A stretch of DNA of 64,000 nt from Acidobacteriota bacterium. Its GTDB lineage: Bacteria > Acidobacteriota > Terriglobia > Terriglobales > Acidobacteriaceae. The DNA is taken from the NCBI GenBank assembly GCA_021780075.1, contig JAJXZL010000010.1, forward strand, positions 1 to 64,000, read 5' to 3'. Shown in pieces: positions 13,141-59,819 of this stretch. A program made the position numbers and the translations under genes. The notes under the pieces are model-generated. The model had not been told where the DNA came from, searched no databases, and saw nothing but the letters and a program-made list of their open reading frames with translations. Position 1 is the stretch's first letter. Each line of letters opens with the position of its first letter.

Positions 13141-15360
13141 ATGACTCAGGCAACATTCGCTTCGCCCGCCCTCAAGTTCCTTGAAGACCGCTGGGACCCC
13201 AGCCTGGCCGCGACCCTCGACGAGCCGGAGCTTCTCCGCTATCGCTCCAACCTGCTGGGGTCGGACTTGCGCATCACAAACTTTGCGGGCGGCAACACCA
13301 GTTCCAAGATCATGGAAATTGACCCGCTGACCGGCGAACCCGTCGAGGTGCTTTGGGTGAAGGGCTCCGGCGGCGACCTGGGCAGCATGAAGCGCGCTGG
13401 CTTTGCCACACTCTTCTTCCACAAACTGCTGGCTCTTGAACGCAGCTACAAGGGCGTGGACACCGAAGATGATATGGCGGCAATGTATCCGCTGTGCACC
13501 TTCCGCAACAATCCCGTTGCCGCGTCCATTGACACGCCGCTGCACGGCTTCCTTCCCTTTCCGCACGTCGATCACCTGCATCCCGACTGGGGCATTGCGC
13601 TAGCGGCATCAGCCAACGGCAAAGTCAAGATGGAAGAGTTCAACCGCGAGTTCGGCCACAGGCTGGTGTGGGTGCCGTGGCAGCGCCCCGGCTTTGAACT
13701 GGCCATGATGATGAAGCGCGCGGTCGCCGCAAATCCTGAGTGCCATGGCATTGTGCTGGGCGGCCACGGACTCTTCACCTGGGGCCAGACGCAGCGTGAG
13801 TGCTATGTGAATACGCTCACCGTGATTGACCAGATAGGCCAGTTCATTCAACGGCACGGCATCGCCAAAGGACCGGTGCGCTTCGGCGGCGAGGCTGTTC
13901 CCGCGCGTGCGGATCGCAAAGAGCTAGCCGTGCAGATTGCGCCCTTTCTGCGCGGCAAGGTGAGCACGCAGAATCGCTGGATCTCCAGTTTCACCGACGC
14001 GGCTGATGTGTTGCAGTTTGTAAATTCAGCCCACGCAAAAGAGCTTGCCTTCCTGGGCACAAGCTGCCCCGATCACTTTATCCGCACCAAGATTCGGCCG
14101 CTGTTTGTGCCGTGGGCAGCGGGCGCGAGCCTGGACGATCTTAAGCGGCAAATCGAGAAGTCGCTCGACGAATACCGCGAGCAATACCGCGCCTACTATC
14201 ACTCGTTTGCCACGCCGGACTCGCCTGCACTGCGCGACGCAAGCCCGACGATCGTGCTCATCCCCGGGCTGGGCATGTTCAGCTTTGGAAAGAACAAGAC
14301 TGAAGCGCGCATCACCGGCGAGTTCTACACCAACGCCATTCACGTCATGGAAGGAGCAAGCCTGCTCGGCGATGGTGAGATAAAAGGCACGGTGCCGCAG
14401 TGCGCCGAGGGCGTGGACCCGGCCAGCTTCAAGGTCTTCACCAACTATGTAGCGCTGCCGGCTCTTGAAGCGTTCCGCATTGAATATTGGGCGCTGGAAG
14501 AGGCCAAGCTGCGCCGCCAGCCGCCGGAGAAGGAACTGAGCCGCCGCATCGCTCTCGTGGTCGGCGGAGGCAGCGGCATTGGCCGCGAGGTAGCGCTGCT
14601 GGCTGCGGCGCGCGGCGCGCACGTGATGGTGGCTGACCGCGACGAAGCAGCGGCGGCCCACGTTGCCGATGAATTGAGGACCATCGCGTCCAAAGAGTTT
14701 GTCGCCGTGACGCCTGTCGATATCCGCAACCGCGAAGCCATTGGCAAGGCGCTGCGGGCAACTGTGGCTGCCTTTGGCGGCGTGGACATCCTGATCAACA
14801 CGGCTGCCATGTTTCCGTCTTCTCCTGACGGCGTGATCAGCGACGCGCAGTGGGCCACCACGCTCGATGTAAACGTGACCGCCAACTATCTTCTGGCGGA
14901 TGAGGCAGGCAAGCTGTTCAACGAGCAGGGGCTTGACGGCTCCATCGTCCTCACCAGTTCGGCCAACGCGGTCGTCGCCAAGCGCGGCAGCGAGGCGTAT
15001 GACGTGAGCAAGGCTGCGTTGTCGCACCTGGTCCGCGAACTGGCCGTTGCGCTCTCGCCGCGCGTGCGTGTGAACGGCATCAGCCCGGCGACCGTGGTGA
15101 AAGGCTCAACGATGTTTCCGCGCGATCGCGTGCGCGCCTCGCTCACCAAGTACAGCATTGCTTTTGAAGAGTCCCAGAGCGATGAGGAACTGCGCAGCCT
15201 TCTTGCCGGCTTCTACGCAAAACGTACGCTGACGCATCAACCGATTGACCCGGCGGACTGCGCTGAGGCGATTCTCTTCCTCGCCAGCCCGCGGGCGCGG
15301 TGCACCTCCGGCCACCTGATCCCGGTGGACGGCGGACTCACCGAGGCATTTTTGCGGTGA
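13141..15360 (+). CDS. rhaEW: Bifunctional rhamnulose-1-phosphate aldolase / lactaldehyde dehydrogenase
   Basis: This fusion protein of 739 aa splits L-rhamnulose-1-phosphate to dihydroxyacetone phosphate and L-lactaldehyde, and oxidises the lactaldehyde. The N-terminal class II aldolase part (to about 440) has 'GGNTSSKIME', 'HVDHLHPDW' and 'VLGGHGLFTWG' with the metal-binding His residues. The C-terminal short-chain dehydrogenase (about 470-739) has the nucleotide motif 'VVGGGSGIGRE', 'SSANA' and the catalytic 'YDVSK'. The ATG at 13141 fits the family start; the track start is a TTG 33 bp upstream. Its stop overlaps the kinase start (GTGA), so the two are translationally coupled. Confidence 0.92.
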   Translation: MTQATFASPALKFLEDRWDPSLAATLDEPELLRYRSNLLGSDLRITNFAGGNTSSKIMEIDPLTGEPVEVLWVKGSGGDLGSMKRAGFATLFFHKLLALERSYKGVDTEDDMAAMYPLCTFRNNPVAASIDTPLHGFLPFPHVDHLHPDWGIALAASANGKVKMEEFNREFGHRLVWVPWQRPGFELAMMMKRAVAANPECHGIVLGGHGLFTWGQTQRECYVNTLTVIDQIGQFIQRHGIAKGPVRFGGEAVPARADRKELAVQIAPFLRGKVSTQNRWISSFTDAADVLQFVNSAHAKELAFLGTSCPDHFIRTKIRPLFVPWAAGASLDDLKRQIEKSLDEYREQYRAYYHSFATPDSPALRDASPTIVLIPGLGMFSFGKNKTEARITGEFYTNAIHVMEGASLLGDGEIKGTVPQCAEGVDPASFKVFTNYVALPALEAFRIEYWALEEAKLRRQPPEKELSRRIALVVGGGSGIGREVALLAAARGAHVMVADRDEAAAAHVADELRTIASKEFVAVTPVDIRNREAIGKALRATVAAFGGVDILINTAAMFPSSPDGVISDAQWATTLDVNVTANYLLADEAGKLFNEQGLDGSIVLTSSANAVVAKRGSEAYDVSKAALSHLVRELAVALSPRVRVNGISPATVVKGSTMFPRDRVRASLTKYSIAFEESQSDEELRSLLAGFYAKRTLTHQPIDPADCAEAILFLASPRARCTSGHLIPVDGGLTEAFLR

Positions 15361-26667: not shown

Positions 26668-27702
26668 CTAGACCTTCGCTTCCAGGTCGCGGATGACGCT
26701 GAAGAAGCGTTCGTCGAGACGGCGGTTGGTGGAGATGGCTTCCTTGATCGTGATGTCGGTGATGTCCGTGCCGTGCAAAACGGCGATGCGGCCCCACTTC
26801 TTCTGGTGAACCATATCGATGGCATGCAGGCCGTAGCGCTGGCCCAGCAGGCGGTCGTACGCCGTGGGAACGCCGCCCCGCTGGGTGTGCCCCAGATTCA
26901 CCGAGCGCGTCTCAAAGCCGGTTTTCTTTTCAATCAGGTCGGCCAGCGCCTCGCCAATGCCCGACAGGCGCACATGGCCGAACGAATCCACTTCCTGGGA
27001 GCCAACCACCTGGCCTACCTCGGGCAAGTGGCAGCCTTCGGCCACCACAACCACGCCGTAATGCTTGCCGTGATCGTAGTTGTATTTGAGCAGCGCGCAG
27101 ACATGATCAATATCAATCTCCTGCTCGGGAACCAGCACCACATGCGCGCCGCCGGCGATGCCCGAGGCATACGCAATCCAGCCCGCGTCGCGGCCCATCA
27201 CCTCAACCACCACAACGCGGTTGTGCGAGTCGGCGGTGGTGTGGATGCGGTCAATAGCCTCTGTTGCGATGGCGACGGCAGTGTCGAAGCCGAACGTGGC
27301 ATCCGTGCCGTTGATGTCGTTGTCGATGGTCTTGGGCACGCCCACGCTGGGCACGCCATTTTCACTCAGGAACAGCGTGACCGATTGCGTGTCGTCGCCG
27401 CCAAGCGCGATGAGCGCATCGATCTTGTTGGTCTTCAGAACCTCCTGAACCTTCTCGATGCCGCCTGGAATCTTTTTCACGTTGGTGCGCGAGGAGTGAA
27501 GGATGGTGCCGCCCTTCAACTGGATTCCGTCGGTGCTTTCCAGGGTGAGCGGGATCCAATTGTTGTCGAGCACGCCACGCCAGCCGTTAAGAAAGCCGAT
27601 GAACTCATCGCCATAAGTCTGGATACCTTTTCTCACGGCAGCATAGATCACCGCATTCAAACCGGGGCAGTCGCCTCCACCGGTCAACAAAGCAACTCGC
27701 AT
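26668..27702 (-). CDS. pfkA: 6-phosphofructokinase, pyrophosphate-dependent type predicted
   Basis: This 344-aa cytoplasmic enzyme phosphorylates fructose-6-phosphate. It has 'GGGDCPGLNAVI' at the start, 'GGDDT' (101-105), 'PKTIDNDI' (123-130), 'EVMGRDAGWIA' and 'LGHTQRGG'. In E. coli ATP-PFK the residues at 104 and 124 are both Gly; Asp and Lys there mark pyrophosphate-using enzymes. Here they are Asp104 and Lys124, so I predict a PPi-dependent, reversible enzyme of the mixed-substrate group. This is a family rule, not proof: some members of the group use ATP. A CRP/FNR-like site lies 134 bp upstream. Confidence 0.9.
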   Translation of the reverse strand: MRVALLTGGGDCPGLNAVIYAAVRKGIQTYGDEFIGFLNGWRGVLDNNWIPLTLESTDGIQLKGGTILHSSRTNVKKIPGGIEKVQEVLKTNKIDALIALGGDDTQSVTLFLSENGVPSVGVPKTIDNDINGTDATFGFDTAVAIATEAIDRIHTTADSHNRVVVVEVMGRDAGWIAYASGIAGGAHVVLVPEQEIDIDHVCALLKYNYDHGKHYGVVVVAEGCHLPEVGQVVGSQEVDSFGHVRLSGIGEALADLIEKKTGFETRSVNLGHTQRGGVPTAYDRLLGQRYGLHAIDMVHQKKWGRIAVLHGTDITDITIKEAISTNRRLDERFFSVIRDLEAKV

Positions 27703-27835: not shown

Positions 27836-27849
27836 GTGACGGTCCTCAC
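27836..27849 (-). promoter_or_regulatory. CRP/FNR-family-like site upstream of pfkA
   Basis: The sequence reads GTGA-CGGTCC-TCAC on the plus strand, an exact match to the GTGA-N6-TCAC pattern also found before hoxE, feoA and the FBP aldolase/phosphatase gene. Reading toward pfkA, a -10-like TACACT follows after 23 nt. It could also serve the divergent membrane-protein gene at 27923. Confidence 0.45.
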
Positions 27850-43197: not shown

Positions 43198-43240
43198 CGT
43201 GACAGTTGTCACGGATAATAAAAGACTTTCCACGTACAAC
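43198..43240 (+). promoter_or_regulatory. CRP/FNR-like operator and -10 box of the hox operon
   Basis: The perfect palindrome CGTGACA-GT-TGTCACG contains GTGA-N6-TCAC (43199-43212). A -10-like TACAAC lies at 43235-43240, 22 nt after the site, which would put the site at -41.5 from a start near 43247. The hoxE GTG is 63 nt further on. Identical spacing and the same TACAAC occur before feoA. Confidence 0.6.
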
Positions 43241-43309: not shown

Positions 43310-43807
43310 GTGACTACATTCACCCCCCCGCCGCTACCAAGCGACGACAAACGTTGGAAGATCGTGAACGGAACGATGCGCAAAAACGGCTTTGCACGTC
43401 ATGCGCTGATCGAAACACTTCACACCGTGCAGTCCTCGTTCGGATATTTAGACGATGACTCCATCCGCTTCGTGGCTCGCTCCCTCCGCGTGCCTCTCAG
43501 CCAGGCTTATGGCGTGGCGACCTTCTACCACTATTTCAGCCTGAAGCCGCCCGGCGAGCACACCATGACCATCTGCACCGGCACGGCCTGCTACATCAAA
43601 GGCGCAGACAAGTTACTGGCCGAGTCGGAAATGAAGCTCGGTGTCGCACTCGGCCAAACGACCGCCGACGGCAAGGTCAGCCTCATGACCGCTCGTTGCG
43701 TAGGCGCATGCAGTCGCGCCCCGGTTGTACTCTGCGATGGAAAAGTCTCGGGCGAAATGTCCCGCGAGCAACTGATTGAGCAGCTTGAAAGGTGGACGGT
43801 GGAATGA
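43310..43807 (+). CDS. hoxE: NAD-linked hydrogenase diaphorase subunit HoxE
   Basis: HoxE is a thioredoxin-like [2Fe-2S] protein homologous to NuoE of complex I. The GTG at 43310 follows 'gggagg' and gives 165 aa; the track start at 43199 lies in the operator. The cluster ligands are in '[11 protein letters not shown]' and '[11 protein letters not shown]' (CX4C...CX3C). '[35 protein letters not shown]' is the family helical part. It starts the five-subunit hox operon, and its stop overlaps hoxF. Confidence 0.93.
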
Positions 43808-46702: not shown

Positions 46703-48124
46703 ATGAGCCAGACCATCACCATCGATCCCGTTACTCGCCTCGAAGGCCACGGCAAGATCACCATCCAACTCAACGGTCAGGGCGGAGTGGAAGACGCGCA
46801 CTTTCACGTCACACAGGTGCGCGGCTTTGAGCGCTTCGCCCAGGGCCGGCCTTTCTATGAGATGCCCAGCCTCATGGCGCGCATCTGCGGCATCTGTCCG
46901 GTCTCGCATCTCATCGCCTCGGCAAAAGCCTGCGAAGCCATCATGTCTGTCAGGATTCCGCACACCGCCGCGCAACTGCGCCGCATGTTGAACCTGGCGC
47001 AAATGGTACAGTCGCACGCGCTCAGCTTTTTCTATCTCGCCTCGCCAGACCTGCTGCTGGGCATGGAGTCAGACCCCGCGTCGCGCCACATCTTTGGCGT
47101 GGTCAGCGCCAAGCCTGAGCTGGGACGCGCCGGTATCGCTCTGCGCCGCTTTGGCCAGCACATCATCGAGTTGCTCGGCGACAAGCGCATTCATCCCGGA
47201 TGGGTTGTGCCCGGCGGCGTGACCGAACCGCTGTCCCCGGCCAAACGCGATGAAATTCTCGCCATGATTCCCGAGGCCTATGCCAACGTCAAGCTCGCGC
47301 TGGCCGCCTACAAGCAGATCGCTGACAGTTTCAAACCGGAGATCGAGGTCTTCGCTAACTTCCCGTCACTCTTCATGGGCCTCATCAATGAAGACGAGTC
47401 GGTGGAGTTCACCGACGGCACGCTGCGGCTCATCGACGCCAAGGGCAACATCGTTGACGACGGCATCACGGCAAGCAGATTCACTGAGGTCATCGGCGAA
47501 GCCGTCGAGGCCTACAGCTACACCAAGTTTGCCTACTACAAGCCGCTCGGCTACCCTGAGGGAAGCTACCGCGTGGGTCCGCTGGCGCGGCTCAACATTG
47601 CTAAAACCATGGGTACTCCGCTCGCGGACAAGGAACTCGCCGAGTTCAAGCAGTTGGCCGAAGGGCCTGTCCAGGGATCGTTCTACTATCACCATGCGCG
47701 GCTCGTTGACATGCTCTATGGCATCGAGAAGATTGAACAGATCCTGTCCGATCCGTTGATCCTCGACACGCACGTACGCGCCACAGCAGGAGTCAATCGC
47801 CTTGAGGGCGCAGGCCAGGCTGAAGCACCGCGCGGCACACTGATGCACAACTACAAAGTGGACGAAAACGGCCTCATCACCTGGGCCAACCTCGTCATCG
47901 CCACCGGCCAGAACAACAACGCCATGAATAAGGGCGTGCTGCAGGCCGCCCGGCATTACATCAAGGATGGCAAATTTAGTGAAGGCATTCTCAATCGCAT
48001 CGAGGCCGTCGTCCGCACCTTTGACCCCTGCCTCAGTTGCTCCACGCATGCCTTTGGACAAATGCCGCTGGACGTCACGCTCATCTCGGCCGATGGAGAA
48101 ATCGTCGATCGTGTTATGCGCTAG
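46703..48124 (+). CDS. hoxH: [NiFe] hydrogenase large subunit HoxH
   Basis: HoxH holds the Ni-Fe active site, where H2 is split or made. It is 473 aa. The first ligand motif is '[10 protein letters not shown]' (Cys62, Cys65) and the second 'DPCLSCSTH' (Cys443, Cys446, His449). A 24-residue tail beginning 'AFGQMPLDV' follows His449 and should be cut off by the protease encoded next. Together with HoxE, F, U and Y this is a bidirectional NAD-linked enzyme (group 3d by architecture). Such enzymes can oxidise H2 or release excess reductant as H2. Confidence 0.96.
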
Positions 48125-56001: not shown

Positions 56002-57126
56002 TTACGCCTTGGCAAACGCCGGCTTCTCTTCGCGGATATGGAACCGCTTTTCCAGAACCGCCATCTTCTCCGCGATGCCCGTATACTCAAGCTCGAACAT
56101 GGGCAGCATCGCCGTGCCGACAAATCCCTGCCGCCGGATATCCATGGTCTTCTTCGCCACCCGATTGCGCACCGTATCCCAGAACGGATGATCGAAATTA
56201 TCCATCGGCTCGGTCAGCCTGCCGTTGTGGACGCAGAATCCGGCACAACTCACAATGGGCGGCCCATCGAAGTAGCTGATGCCCGTGCTCAGCCGCACCG
56301 GCATCAGAGGAACCTGGTGCGAACCGCGCATGCCTCCGCCAACAAAGTGGCCAATCGCGTACGGCGCAAGAATTTCGCCCGTGGCCGGAAAGTTCATCTG
56401 CACGCGCACAAGCATCACCGGATCGTCTTTGCCCGTGTATTTCCCGGCAATGTTGTGCAGCCGCGAAGTGGCCACCGCTACCGCCTGCTCGCCCGTGGCG
56501 CGCGACCATATCGACTCCACCACAAAGCGCTCCGGATCGCGCAGCAGAGCCGCAACGTCGTAGATCTCCTCCGGAGTAGTCAGTTCGATAACCCGGTCGC
56601 CGGTCGTATTGTTCACATCCATGATGACGAACTTGTAGCCGCGCGAAATATTGGGCGACAGAATCAGCCCGGGCGTGTTCATCACATCCGCAAAAGCCAG
56701 ATACAGCGGCAGGTTGTATGCACCCGGATCGGTCTTGTCCGCCGCGAAAAAGAGAAACGGCTCGCTGGTGCGCTCGTCAATCTCCATCTCCGCCACGGCC
56801 GGGCCCATGCCCTTCACGTTGCCAGAGAAGGAGTCCTTCAGCAGGTCCTGCCCTGCTCCGTACAGTCCCTCTTGCCGCGCGGCATTCGTGCCCGTGCGAA
56901 ACGCATCCCAGGCCAGCTGATGAACTTGCTCATCGTTCGGCCCGTGCGTGTGCGTCATCAGAATCGCAATGTCGTCCCCGGTATAGCTGATGTAGTGGTC
57001 AAGCAACAGTCCGGGTGCTCGCTTCCCGACGTAGTCCCTGACGGTTGCAAGAAGCTGTTGCGATGGAGCGACGTGTCCGCCGATGGAGCCGATATCTGCC
57101 TTGATCACGCTTAAGGTCAATTTCAT
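56002..57126 (-). CDS. fbp: Bifunctional fructose-1,6-bisphosphate aldolase/phosphatase
   Basis: This is the archaeal-type FBPA/P, which condenses triose phosphates and dephosphorylates the product in one active site, making gluconeogenesis one-way. It is 374 aa. Family segments are 'LSVIKADIGSIGGHVAPS', 'DHYISYTGDDIAILMTHTHG', 'AWDAFRTGTNAARQEGLYGAGQDLLKDSFSGNVKGMGPAVAEME' and 'STGISYFDGPPIVSC'. It is known in archaea and deep-branching bacteria. A GTGA-N6-TCAC site with a well-spaced GATAAT -10 box lies just upstream, predicting a leader of about 11 nt starting with a GGGGGTGAG ribosome binding site. Confidence 0.93.
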   Translation of the reverse strand: MKLTLSVIKADIGSIGGHVAPSQQLLATVRDYVGKRAPGLLLDHYISYTGDDIAILMTHTHGPNDEQVHQLAWDAFRTGTNAARQEGLYGAGQDLLKDSFSGNVKGMGPAVAEMEIDERTSEPFLFFAADKTDPGAYNLPLYLAFADVMNTPGLILSPNISRGYKFVIMDVNNTTGDRVIELTTPEEIYDVAALLRDPERFVVESIWSRATGEQAVAVATSRLHNIAGKYTGKDDPVMLVRVQMNFPATGEILAPYAIGHFVGGGMRGSHQVPLMPVRLSTGISYFDGPPIVSCAGFCVHNGRLTEPMDNFDHPFWDTVRNRVAKKTMDIRRQGFVGTAMLPMFELEYTGIAEKMAVLEKRFHIREEKPAFAKA

Positions 57127-57143
57127 GGCTCACCCCCGGCATG

Positions 57144-57185
57144 ATTATCCCCCCATTTCATTCCGCATGGGGTGACTCGAGTCAC
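57144..57185 (-). promoter_or_regulatory. CRP/FNR-like operator and -10 box of the FBP aldolase/phosphatase gene
   Basis: The perfect 14-bp palindrome GTGACTCGAGTCAC (57172-57185) is followed, reading leftward, by exactly 22 nt and then GATAAT (57149-57144), five of six matches to the -10 consensus. A site centred at -41.5 predicts transcription from about 57137. Confidence 0.6.
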
Positions 57186-57307
57186 GCCCATCCGCTGATT
57201 TCAGGCCCTTTCATGAAGGCAAATTCATCTTCATCCACCCACCCTCTGCTCACAGTCGCCGCGGCGAATGTTTTTGATCCTTGCCGCCTCAATTTTTCTC
57301 GTGCCAG
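57186..57307. other. Spacer between the two divergent control sites
   Basis: No gene or clear motif is seen in this 122-bp spacer between the FBP aldolase/phosphatase promoter and the feo control site. Confidence 0.5.
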
Positions 57308-57349
57308 GTGATTTAGGTCACATCCTTCACCTTCCGCCCTTGGTACAAC
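57308..57349 (+). promoter_or_regulatory. CRP/FNR-like operator and -10 box upstream of feoAB
   Basis: GTGATTTAGGTCAC (57308-57321) fits GTGA-N6-TCAC, and TACAAC (57344-57349) follows after 22 nt, the same hexamer and spacing as in the hox promoter. The predicted transcript would have a leader of about 215 nt before feoA. Confidence 0.5.
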
Positions 57350-57505
57350 ATGGATGGCGTTCTGATGAGCCATCCTCGCACTCCATCTGAAAGCCAGGAG
57401 ATGAACAGGCGGGCACGATGCCAACCGTCGCTCCGGTCCCGGGAGGTCACGGCATGGGTAGGGTTGATGATGTTTTGCCAACCAGCGTTTGCGACTCAGA
57501 CCAAA

Positions 57506-57544
57506 TTGGTCGTATACTTAAATCCGACTATTCTGGTCGTACAT
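57506..57544 (+). promoter_or_regulatory. Second feo promoter with Rrf2/IscR-like operator
   Basis: A -35-like TTGGTC (57506) and a -10-like TATTCT (57529) are 17 bp apart. Over the -10 lies CCGACTATTCTGGTC within 57520-57544, matching most of the IscR type 1 core YYGACTRWWWYAGTC. Iron-sulfur-based control of iron uptake by an Rrf2-family regulator would make sense here. Confidence 0.45.
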
Positions 57545-57570
57545 TTTGGGCGTGGCCCTTTCGGCAGCCC

Positions 57571-57909
57571 ATGGGAGTCCAACGTTTGAGCGTGCTGAGT
57601 GAATTGAACATCGGCGATAGTGGCGTACTGGTAGCTCTGGATCTGCCTGAGTCGGTTCAGAACCACCTTATGCACATGGGGTTTGTCCCCGACGCGCGCG
57701 TGACCGCCCTGCGTCGCGCTCCGGCTGGCGACCCCACCGTCTATGCCATTGATGGAATGGAAATTGCCTTGCGGCATGAGACGGCTGAGGCGATCCGGGT
57801 GCGGCCCTGCCGGGCGGATTCTGCCGGCAGAGGACAAAACCGCCGCGGCCGACATCACAGGAAAAATTCTCCTGTTTCTAATCCGGCTTCCGTTGAGGCC
57901 ACCCAATGA
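57571..57909 (+). CDS. feoA: Ferrous iron transport protein A
   Basis: FeoA is a small SH3-like cytoplasmic partner of FeoB. The conserved part 'LSELNIGDSGVLVALDLPESVQNHLMHMGFVPDARVTALRRAPAGDPTVYAIDGMEIALRHETAEAIRV' covers about 75 residues; a basic tail of about 30 residues follows. The start is uncertain: the ATG at 57571 lacks a ribosome binding site, whereas a TTG at 57586 has 'gggag' 8 nt before it, and an in-frame ATG at 57454 has 'gggagg' but would add an unlikely extension across the promoter motif. Its stop overlaps the feoB start (ATGA). Confidence 0.88.
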   Translation: MGVQRLSVLSELNIGDSGVLVALDLPESVQNHLMHMGFVPDARVTALRRAPAGDPTVYAIDGMEIALRHETAEAIRVRPCRADSAGRGQNRRGRHHRKNSPVSNPASVEATQ

Positions 57910-59819
57910 GTTCCTGCTGCTCCACCCCGGCCTTTGAGCCCCCTGCCGCTCCGCCGCCTGAAGGCGCTCTGCGCACCGTAGCCCTCATCGGACCGCCCAA
58001 TTCCGGCAAGTCCACGCTTTTCAATCGCTTGACGGGCCTGCGCCAGAAGGTGGCCAACTATCCCGGCGTCACGGTTGAACAGCGCATGGGCCTCATGGCC
58101 GGCGTCGGCCGCGATGACCTCACACTCATTGACCTGCCCGGCGTCTACTCGCTTTCGCCTTACTCTGAGGATGCGCGCGTCTCTGTCGATGTGCTGAAGG
58201 GCAAAATGCCCGGCACGCCCAAGCCAGATGCGGTCCTGCTGGTGCTTGATTCGCAGCACCTTACCCGCCAGCTCATGCTGGCCGCTCCGGTTCTCGCCCT
58301 GGGCATACCCACCCTTGTTCTGCTCAACATGACGGATCTGATGGAAGCCCGCGGCGGTCAGATCGACCCCCTCCGGCTGGCCCGCGAGCTCGGCGCGCCC
58401 GTAGCTCAAATCAGCGCTGTCCAAGGCACAGGGCTCGAGGCTGTTTCGCTCTTCCTCAATCAGCAATCCCAGCCGACCACCTCGGCACCGCTCTCGCTGC
58501 CCGTGCTTGGCAATGCAGCCAGCACGCACACGTGGGCCGCGCAGGTCAGCCGCCGCACCGGCTACCGTGCGCCGCTCTCAGCAAAAACCAGCCGCAAAAT
58601 CGACGACATCCTGCTGCACCGCATCTGGGGACCGCTCCTGTTCCTCGTGGTCGTGGTCGGCGTATTTGAGGTGGTGTTTTCCATCGGCCAGCCGCTCTCT
58701 GACGGTTTTGGTGACGTCCTGGCCCAGATCGGCCAACTGGCTCGTCCGCTGCTGCCCGCGGGCTGGCTGCAATCGCTGCTGCTTGACGGCGCGTGGAAGG
58801 GCATCTCGTCCGTACTCGTCTTCCTGCCGCAGATTCTGCTGCTGTTTCTCTTCATCGGCATTCTTGAGGACTCAGGCTATCTGGCCCGCGCCGCCCTCAT
58901 CGCCGACCGCGTCATGCGCACCACCGGACTCAACGGCAAAGCATTCATCCCGCTGCTCTCGGCCTACGCCTGCGCCGTCCCGGCCATCATGGCCACGCGC
59001 ACCATCGAGAACAAACGCGACCGCTTCGCCACCATCCTCGTCACGCCGTTCATGACCTGCTCCGCGCGCCTGCCCGTCTACATGCTGCTCATCGCGGCCT
59101 TCATTCCCCACCGCGTATATCTGCACGGCTTCATCGACCTGCAGACGCTCACCATGCTGGGCCTCTACGTCGCCGGATTTGTCGCTGCCATGACCACTGC
59201 CTGGCTGCTCAAAAGCTCCGTCCTCAAGTCCAGCGAAACGCCCTTCATTCTCGAACTGCCCCAGTACCGCATGCCCACGCTGCATTCGCTGGGCATCCGG
59301 CTCGTGGACCGCGCGCGCGTCTTCCTGCGCCAGGCAGGCACCATCATTCTTATGGTGACGCTGGCCCTGTGGGTGCTCGCGCACATCCCGCCGGTCCCCA
59401 TGGCGGGCGGCTCCTACGCGGCTCCCAAACTGGCTGAAAGCATGATCGGCCGCCTCGGCCACTTCATCGAACCGGCCATCGCGCCCCTCGGCTTCAACTG
59501 GGAAATCGGCATCGGCCTGCTATCGAGCGTACTGGCGCGCGAAGTCATGGTCAGCACCATGGGCACGCTCTACGGCGCCGACCCCAGCACCGAAGCCCTG
59601 AATCTGCAAACCGCCCTGCACCACAACATGACGCTCGGCGGCGCGCTGGCCCTCATGATCTTCTTCGCATTCGCCATGCAGTGCACCTCCACCATGGCCG
59701 TGGTGCGCCGCGAGACCAACAGTTGGAAGTGGCCTGCCTTGCAGTTCCTCTACATGCTCGTGCTCGCCTGGGTCGCCGCCTTCGTCGTGAACCATGTCAC
59801 CATGGCATTCCTCAGCTAG
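57906..59819 (+). CDS. feoB: Ferrous iron transporter B
   Basis: FeoB is the inner-membrane Fe(II) transporter with an N-terminal G domain. At 637 aa it is shorter than the 773-aa E. coli protein. G-motifs are 'GPPNSGKSTLFNRLTG' (G1), 'YPGVTVEQRMG' (G2), 'DLPGVYSL' (G3) and 'NMTD' (G4). The membrane part has the two Gate-type halves ('GILEDSGYLARAALIADRVM', 'AYACAVPAIMATRTIENKRDR', 'LSSVLAREVMVSTMGTLYG'). A short Cys pair near the start ('SSCCS') may bind metal. It follows feoA by overlap and is followed by palindromic repeats. Confidence 0.95.
   Translation: MSSCCSTPAFEPPAAPPPEGALRTVALIGPPNSGKSTLFNRLTGLRQKVANYPGVTVEQRMGLMAGVGRDDLTLIDLPGVYSLSPYSEDARVSVDVLKGKMPGTPKPDAVLLVLDSQHLTRQLMLAAPVLALGIPTLVLLNMTDLMEARGGQIDPLRLARELGAPVAQISAVQGTGLEAVSLFLNQQSQPTTSAPLSLPVLGNAASTHTWAAQVSRRTGYRAPLSAKTSRKIDDILLHRIWGPLLFLVVVVGVFEVVFSIGQPLSDGFGDVLAQIGQLARPLLPAGWLQSLLLDGAWKGISSVLVFLPQILLLFLFIGILEDSGYLARAALIADRVMRTTGLNGKAFIPLLSAYACAVPAIMATRTIENKRDRFATILVTPFMTCSARLPVYMLLIAAFIPHRVYLHGFIDLQTLTMLGLYVAGFVAAMTTAWLLKSSVLKSSETPFILELPQYRMPTLHSLGIRLVDRARVFLRQAGTIILMVTLALWVLAHIPPVPMAGGSYAAPKLAESMIGRLGHFIEPAIAPLGFNWEIGIGLLSSVLAREVMVSTMGTLYGADPSTEALNLQTALHHNMTLGGALALMIFFAFAMQCTSTMAVVRRETNSWKWPALQFLYMLVLAWVAAFVVNHVTMAFLS

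Follow-up and report, generated by a model that had tools for sequence, protein, structure and literature searches.

CRP-type operators facing fbp and feoAB in an acidobacterium point to an FNR-like regulon, with a second, putatively IscR-controlled promoter proximal to feoA

Acidobacteria are abundant soil bacteria living across oxygen gradients. In a 64,000-nucleotide stretch of an acidobacterial genome (contig JAJXZL010000010.1, positions 1 to 64,000; hereafter the window), the gene for a fructose-1,6-bisphosphate aldolase/phosphatase and the ferrous iron uptake genes feoAB run in opposite directions from a region that contains two copies of one palindrome. The question raised by this arrangement is what the two sites do, which regulator would bind them and to what signal it would respond. 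The genome containing the window is 3.88 Mb in size and 99.5% complete, and its nearest named relatives, judged by fbp, are acidobacterial metagenome bins. The features of the region are as follows.

56002..57126, minus strand: fbp, fructose-1,6-bisphosphate aldolase/phosphatase of the FBPase_3 family (Pfam PF01950, E 1.1e-156)
57144..57149, minus strand: fbp promoter, −10-like GATAAT at 22 nt from its operator; predicted start near 57137
57172..57185, minus strand: fbp operator GTGACTCGAGTCAC, CRP-type GTGA-N6-TCAC, an exact palindrome
57308..57321, plus strand: distal feoA promoter (P1), operator GTGATTTAGGTCAC, CRP-type GTGA-N6-TCAC
57341..57349, plus strand: P1 −10 element of the extended TGn type, TGG-TACAAC, with its hexamer 22 nt past the operator
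57344..57349, plus strand: P1 hexamer TACAAC, start expected near 57356
57586..57909, plus strand: feoA, start TTG 57586 or GTG 57592 (Pfam FeoA, E 1.8e-17; GGAG at 57574-57577)
57906..59819, plus strand: feoB, ferrous iron transporter (Pfam FeoB_N, E 3.4e-46)

The gap between operator and hexamer was 22 nt at fbp and P1 alike, which is the class II spacing with a site at about −41.5; for both promoters the sites, hexamers and gaps given in a preliminary description of this DNA were exact in sequence and coordinates. Judged by sequence, the two promoters have the form that defines class II CRP/FNR promoters, and both would be expected to be activated from their sites. On the other hand, neither site fits the FNR half-site pattern (TTGAT-N4-ATCAA), since position 2 of the half-site is G in these sites (GTGA).

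The motif was more frequent in the window than previously stated. Exact GTGA-N6-TCAC occurs seven times, not four, against 0.76 expected from dinucleotide shuffles (maximum 4 in 100 shuffles), and the earlier chance calculation was built on the incomplete count. The statement that all sites are intergenic is likewise false for the whole window, in which the sites at 13807 and 59787 are coding and that at 43310 is the hoxE start. The hox promoter with TACAAC at 22 nt, on the other hand, was borne out. The sites away from the fbp–feoA region, with the gene downstream of one of them, are these.

43199..43240, plus strand: hox promoter GTGACAGTTGTCAC, 22 nt, TACAAC (site 43199-43212, hexamer 43235-43240)
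43310: exact site at the hoxE start (GTG), which a GGGAGG ribosome-binding site precedes
27836..27849, minus strand: intergenic site upstream of the phosphofructokinase gene, TACACT 23 nt away
26668-27702, minus strand: phosphofructokinase gene, downstream of the site at 27836
13807-13820 and 59787-59800: exact coding sites, the latter at the 3' end of feoB

No flanking consensus accompanied the two coding sites, which are probably chance occurrences. The large subunit of the hox-like cluster (46703-48124) scored best with VhuA and ShyA (F420-non-reducing, sulfhydrogenase-type), all below cut-off and above any named HoxH model, and the cluster may encode a different subtype of group 3 hydrogenase.

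Across the genome, GTGA-N6-TCAC had 101 sites and the reversed control pattern 34, and the search for GTGAT-N4-RTCAC returned 57 rows against 6 for the control. About 73 of the 101 sites were intergenic, though the window region is 88% coding; the site list was assembled via pattern searches and divided by a simple codon-usage gene caller, and the count of 73 is approximate because the caller mis-set the hoxE start and missed feoA. The preliminary description had named, as a result that would speak against it, intergenic sites no commoner than genic ones, and by this count it was not refuted. In 14 intergenic cases TANNNT began 22–23 nt from a site, where other distances predict 2.17 (Poisson P 7.8e-8), and no coding site had it at that distance, showing that the spacing is a property of the genome and not of three hand-picked promoters. 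In addition, the intergenic sites favoured T before GTGA and Y after, as in the CRP consensus, whereas the coding sites showed neither preference.

Regarding relatives, 8 of the 9 acidobacterial sequences aligned had the exact fbp site about 58–65 nt ahead of the start codon, its middle six bases varying among them and the 22-nt spacing to the hexamer being kept in close relatives; constant arms around a diverged middle are the mark expected of a conserved binding site. Upstream of feoA, the exact site was found in 29 of 30 genus loci, mostly 266–300 nt before feoA, and in a comparable place in 16 of 20 further loci (45/50 combined), with a TG-n-TA-n-AA-like sequence 22–23 nt past it in most loci. 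For cydA, 22 of 30 loci had it within 350 nt, against an expectation of about 0.3; the counts for feoA, fbp and cydA are drawn from related genomes and are not independent events, and the surrounding DNA has widely diverged. This cross-species conservation is the decisive evidence that both predicted switches are real. The class II-type layout, with the site at about −41.5, that had been proposed for feoAB, fbp and hox is therefore supported: it recurs genome-wide and is kept at feoA, fbp and cydA.

Since fbp adjoins feo in only 3 of the first 30 feoA loci, each promoter belongs to its own gene, the two having come to lie face to face, and the divergent layout is not part of the mechanism. The feoA-side site persists in genomes without fbp as a neighbour, and the idea that it is confined to the fbp–feo junction was rejected, as it is present in genomes lacking fbp. 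The aldolase/phosphatase gene (56002-57126 in the window) is itself patchy, occurring in 6 of 59 genus genomes, which suggests loss or horizontal gain.

The feoA promoter of the preliminary description, P1, is conserved, but it is the distal of two, and a proximal promoter, P2, had been overlooked.

57489..57518, plus strand: P2, TTGCGA, 18 nt, TATACT; conservation here is among the highest ahead of feoA; predicted start at about 57525
57499..57511, plus strand: box 1 GACCAAATTGGTC, GACC-N5-GGTC, in the P2 spacer; putative IscR/Rrf2-like operator
57526..57538, plus strand: box 2 GACTATTCTGGTC, GACT-N5-GGTC, spaced 27 bp from box 1 and overlying the predicted P2 start

The two boxes lie at −93 and −66 from the GTG codon of feoA and have the form GACY-N5-RGTC, with no recognisable Fur box. 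The longest conserved stretch before feoA was not the CRP-type site but TTTGCGA...TATACT (57488-57518). The P2 stretch is readable in the feoA frame, and in that frame the codons over the P2 −10 and the palindrome arms were near-frozen (CGT 24/24, ATA 25/25, GAC 26/26) in comparison with a mean top-codon share of 0.54 within FeoA; synonymous change is thus so scarce that the DNA, and not only the protein, must be conserved there. A strict form of the palindrome gave 3 genome matches against 3 and 10 for the reversed control, falling at feoA and one other place only. Being no commoner than the control, these matches leave the P2 boxes resting on conservation instead of genome-wide enrichment, and no IscR regulon list could be derived from the strict search.

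Two clear Rrf2 regulators were found in the genome. An IscR-like gene (L296; Rrf2 domain E 3.9e-35, three Cys) is followed by a NifS/IscS-type gene, and GACCGAAGAAGTC, a palindrome of the same type as the P2 boxes, lies 22 nt before its start, a single instance for which we estimate the chance of a palindrome within 200 nt at about 1%. We infer that the protein encoded by L296 would control P2.

Genes were taken as targets of the CRP-type sites if they followed or flanked a site placed in class II-like fashion, and about 20 flanking genes were annotated. The products were bd oxidase, the NiFe hydrogenase small subunit, NuoA, a NuoB-like subunit, rubrerythrin, multihaem cytochromes, cytochrome c assembly proteins, phosphoketolase, Pfk, Usp and ArsR-like proteins. 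The genes looked for in a low-oxygen regulon, namely bd oxidase, hydrogenase, feo, Usp and cytochromes, were all among them. A target set of this kind, including hox, fbp and feoAB, resembles FNR or ANR control elsewhere. The operator is CRP-type, while the regulon behaves like an FNR regulon; it is a respiratory regulon of about 70 sites, probably controlled by an FNR-like protein that senses oxygen or redox state. In Acidobacterium capsulatum transcriptomes, cydA goes up as oxygen falls (PMC8407424). The oxygen-response literature on A. capsulatum that we examined, this paper included, names no CRP or FNR regulator, and a search of a limited collection of papers for acidobacterial FNR/CRP regulons returned nothing relevant; the circuit is of a known kind and, as far as we found, its acidobacterial case is apparently undescribed. 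Two near-identical genes for ArsR-like regulators about 21 kb apart (L148:1598-1966 and L150:1050-1418) each carry a GTGACAGCNNTCAC site with TACACT at 22 nt and are apparently duplicated secondary regulators in the regulon.

We consider it probable that both sites at the fbp–feoA locus are operators of a CRP/FNR-family activator, FNR-like in responding to low oxygen or redox state, and that feoAB is also under an IscR-type-repressed P2. Activation is favoured because a site at −41.5 takes the place of the −35 element. When oxygen is low, a dimer at about −41.5 would contact RNA polymerase and activate fbp in one direction and P1 in the other. Two palindromes cover P2, and an IscR-type Rrf2 repressor sensing iron-sulphur or iron status probably binds them; P2 would be relieved when this status is low, low oxygen adding P1 transcription to that from P2. 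Ferrous uptake would then go up when oxygen falls or when iron-sulphur clusters run short. The layout of feoAB also suggests how oxygen-type and Fe-S-type signals could govern iron uptake where no Fur box is evident. With a defined operator, a target list and a leading candidate regulator, control of the low-oxygen response becomes directly testable.

Eight proteins of the genome have a cNMP-binding domain, and four of these have a Crp-type HTH. The recognition helix RETVTR is shared by three paralogues (the C18, C31 and C33 proteins) and is compatible with GTGA because of the residue–base rule that relates the CRP/FNR recognition helix to its operator (PMC1274295). The R-E-x-x-x-R pattern of this helix in three regulators, together with the tGTGA-N6-TCACa logo of the intergenic sites, marks the operators as CRP-type. 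The proposal of one CRP/FNR regulator for feoAB, fbp and hox therefore survives as regards a CRP/FNR-family system, but not as regards "one", as three paralogues carry the helix; C18, C31 and C33 are each candidates for acting at one site or another.

The likeliest activator of the sites is the C18 protein (G000:C18:60408-61118), which would bind them. It is the most conserved candidate, with 84–99% identity in most of 59 genomes, and contains CX2CX8C (Cys13, Cys16 and Cys25) plus C64 and C112, five Cys that are invariant in 30 sequences. The corresponding FNR motif is CX2CX5C with a fourth Cys, the ligands of an oxygen-labile [4Fe-4S] cluster, and in a register read from alignment ends the first two Cys align with the cluster ligands of FNR while the third and fourth are displaced by about 3 residues. 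The protein scored 58 bits against a cut-off of 228 for the curated Fnr model and 44.5 against 300 for NCBIfam FnrL; with scores so far under the cut-offs and a different Cys spacing, it is therefore not classifiable as FNR at present. Its nearest solved structures are GlxR/Cmr of Actinobacteria. Universal stress protein genes stand to either side of the gene, and GTGA sites likewise flank it. The surrounding locus (L117; G000:C18:56908-63779) contains universal stress protein genes, a stand-alone cNMP-binding protein, the candidate regulator and four GTGA-N6-TCAC sites.

Where completeness was at least 90% and regulator and P1 site could both be scored, 28 genomes had the two together, 1 had the regulator only (G004) and 3 had neither (Fisher P 0.0008), a co-occurrence that is no more than suggestive, the three double-negative genomes possibly being one clade. 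The P1 site occurred without a detected close C18 homologue in G016, G017, G039, G041 and G048, all at most 88% complete, and the C18 regulator without the P1 site in G004 (99% complete) and the less complete G029.

These distributions bear on another reading, in which the paralogues divide the regulon between them and the feoA-side site is bound by the C31 or C33 protein, which might sense NO or haem as HcpR does. RETVTR is found in all three proteins, the C31 regulator gene has a site identical to that of feoA about 1.4 kb downstream, two sites stand just upstream of the C33 regulator gene, and C33-type proteins occur in nearly all genus genomes; moreover, Desulfovibrio HcpR uses wTGTGAn6TCACAw (PMC1274295). 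We nevertheless regard this reading as unlikely: near-complete genomes that have no C18 protein have no P1 site either, yet retain more distant family members, where the joint absence of protein and site is possibly one evolutionary event.

A classical cAMP–CRP catabolite system, with sites that follow carbon supply via cAMP, would account for Pfk, Fbp and phosphoketolase, and it agrees with the CRP-type operator and recognition helix and with the carbon-flow genes among the targets. It seems to us quite improbable, as the annotated targets are mostly respiratory and class III adenylate cyclase was not found in the 99.5% complete genome by a search that was positive in 5 control genomes. In E. 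coli CRP, Arg82 and Ser83 contact cAMP, and at these positions the candidates read E-V-T, E-T-T or E-V-S. Finally, that the sites are repressor operators or stand at promoter distance by chance is hardly credible: TACAAC is a weak −10, and the earlier hexamers were picked by eye with sites overlooked, but enrichment, intergenic bias, the spacing peak and the cross-species conservation of site and spacing all speak against it, and a chance origin was rejected on the site being kept in 29/30 feoA loci.

The FNR-like activator with an IscR-type-repressed P2 can be set beside several known systems. In E. coli, FNR activates feoABC and Fur represses it. Y. pestis feoABC has promoters P1 and P2, the distal P1 spanning a putative Fnr site and the proximal P2 being Fur-regulated, with no effect of fnr deletion on feoB (PMC5519574). 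The present locus would share with both the FNR-family input and an iron-linked repressor, and with Y. pestis a similar two-promoter layout; it differs in its CRP-type operator and in a proximal GACY-N5-RGTC palindrome instead of a recognisable Fur box. R. sphaeroides FnrL binds an FNR-type half-site, unlike the CRP-type sites here; it resembles the C18 protein in its N-terminal Cys motif, and the NCBIfam FnrL model matches that protein weakly, far below cut-off. In the same organism, whose FnrL and IscR regulons are described in PMC4263372 and PMC4618611, IscR represses iron-uptake genes including feoAB from sites overlapping or near −35/−10 (PMC4618611). The element there is the Iron-Rhodo-box, whereas here it is the GACY-N5-RGTC palindrome.

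B. subtilis Fnr is an oxygen-sensing Fe-S regulator with a CRP-like TGTGA-N6-TCACA site, as here; its cluster Cys, however, are near the C terminus, not N-terminal like those of the C18 protein, and the phyla are unrelated. A CRP-like motif is noted for an orthologue of B. subtilis Fnr (PMC1274295). Desulfovibrio HcpR has the motif wTGTGAnnnnnnTCACAw and R180-E181 in the recognition helix (PMC1274295). The CRP-type motif and the R-E of the helix are thus common to HcpR and our candidate, but HcpR proteins are without an FNR-type Cys motif, and their main targets are hcp and frdX. With E. coli CRP class II promoters, the locus shares the operator sequence, the −41.5 placement and the SRETV recognition helix; the effector of E. 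coli CRP, GlxR and Cmr is cAMP, whereas here class III cyclase was not found and the targets are FNR-type.

Regarding the reading frame of feoA, GGA was present at −18 in 28/28 loci, and a further candidate start was seen upstream.

57442..57456, plus strand: candidate upstream FeoA start, GGAGG then ATG at 57454, in the feoA frame

In many loci, an ATG or GTG in the same frame precedes feoA by about 141 nt, behind a GGAGG-like ribosome-binding site; both look conserved, and FeoA may thus have an N-terminally extended form in which a Cys is frequent. The frame over 57454-57591 is open and continuous with feoA in nearly all genus loci, and indels in it are mostly multiples of three. As a tentative and rather doubtful extension of the preferred reading, there could be a genus-wide master regulator of low-oxygen life, a new CRP/FNR subfamily that combines CRP-type recognition with a CX2CX8C metal-cluster sensor and governs respiration, hydrogen use, ferrous uptake and glycolytic flux, feoAB having its IscR-type operator inside an extended feoA frame and two promoters giving two FeoA forms.

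A small ORF from 57350 was rejected, as indels disrupt its frame in L178, and so was a known riboswitch in the feoA leader, for which an Rfam match was absent. No consensus fold was found in 23 aligned feoA leaders, where shuffles gave the same zero energy, so that the result is merely an absence of support. The P1 leader (57356-57440; equivalents in L184-L212) does contain a recurrent sequence around ATCGTTCCGATGAA, and GGGTCCGCCAGGGGG is found in many relatives.
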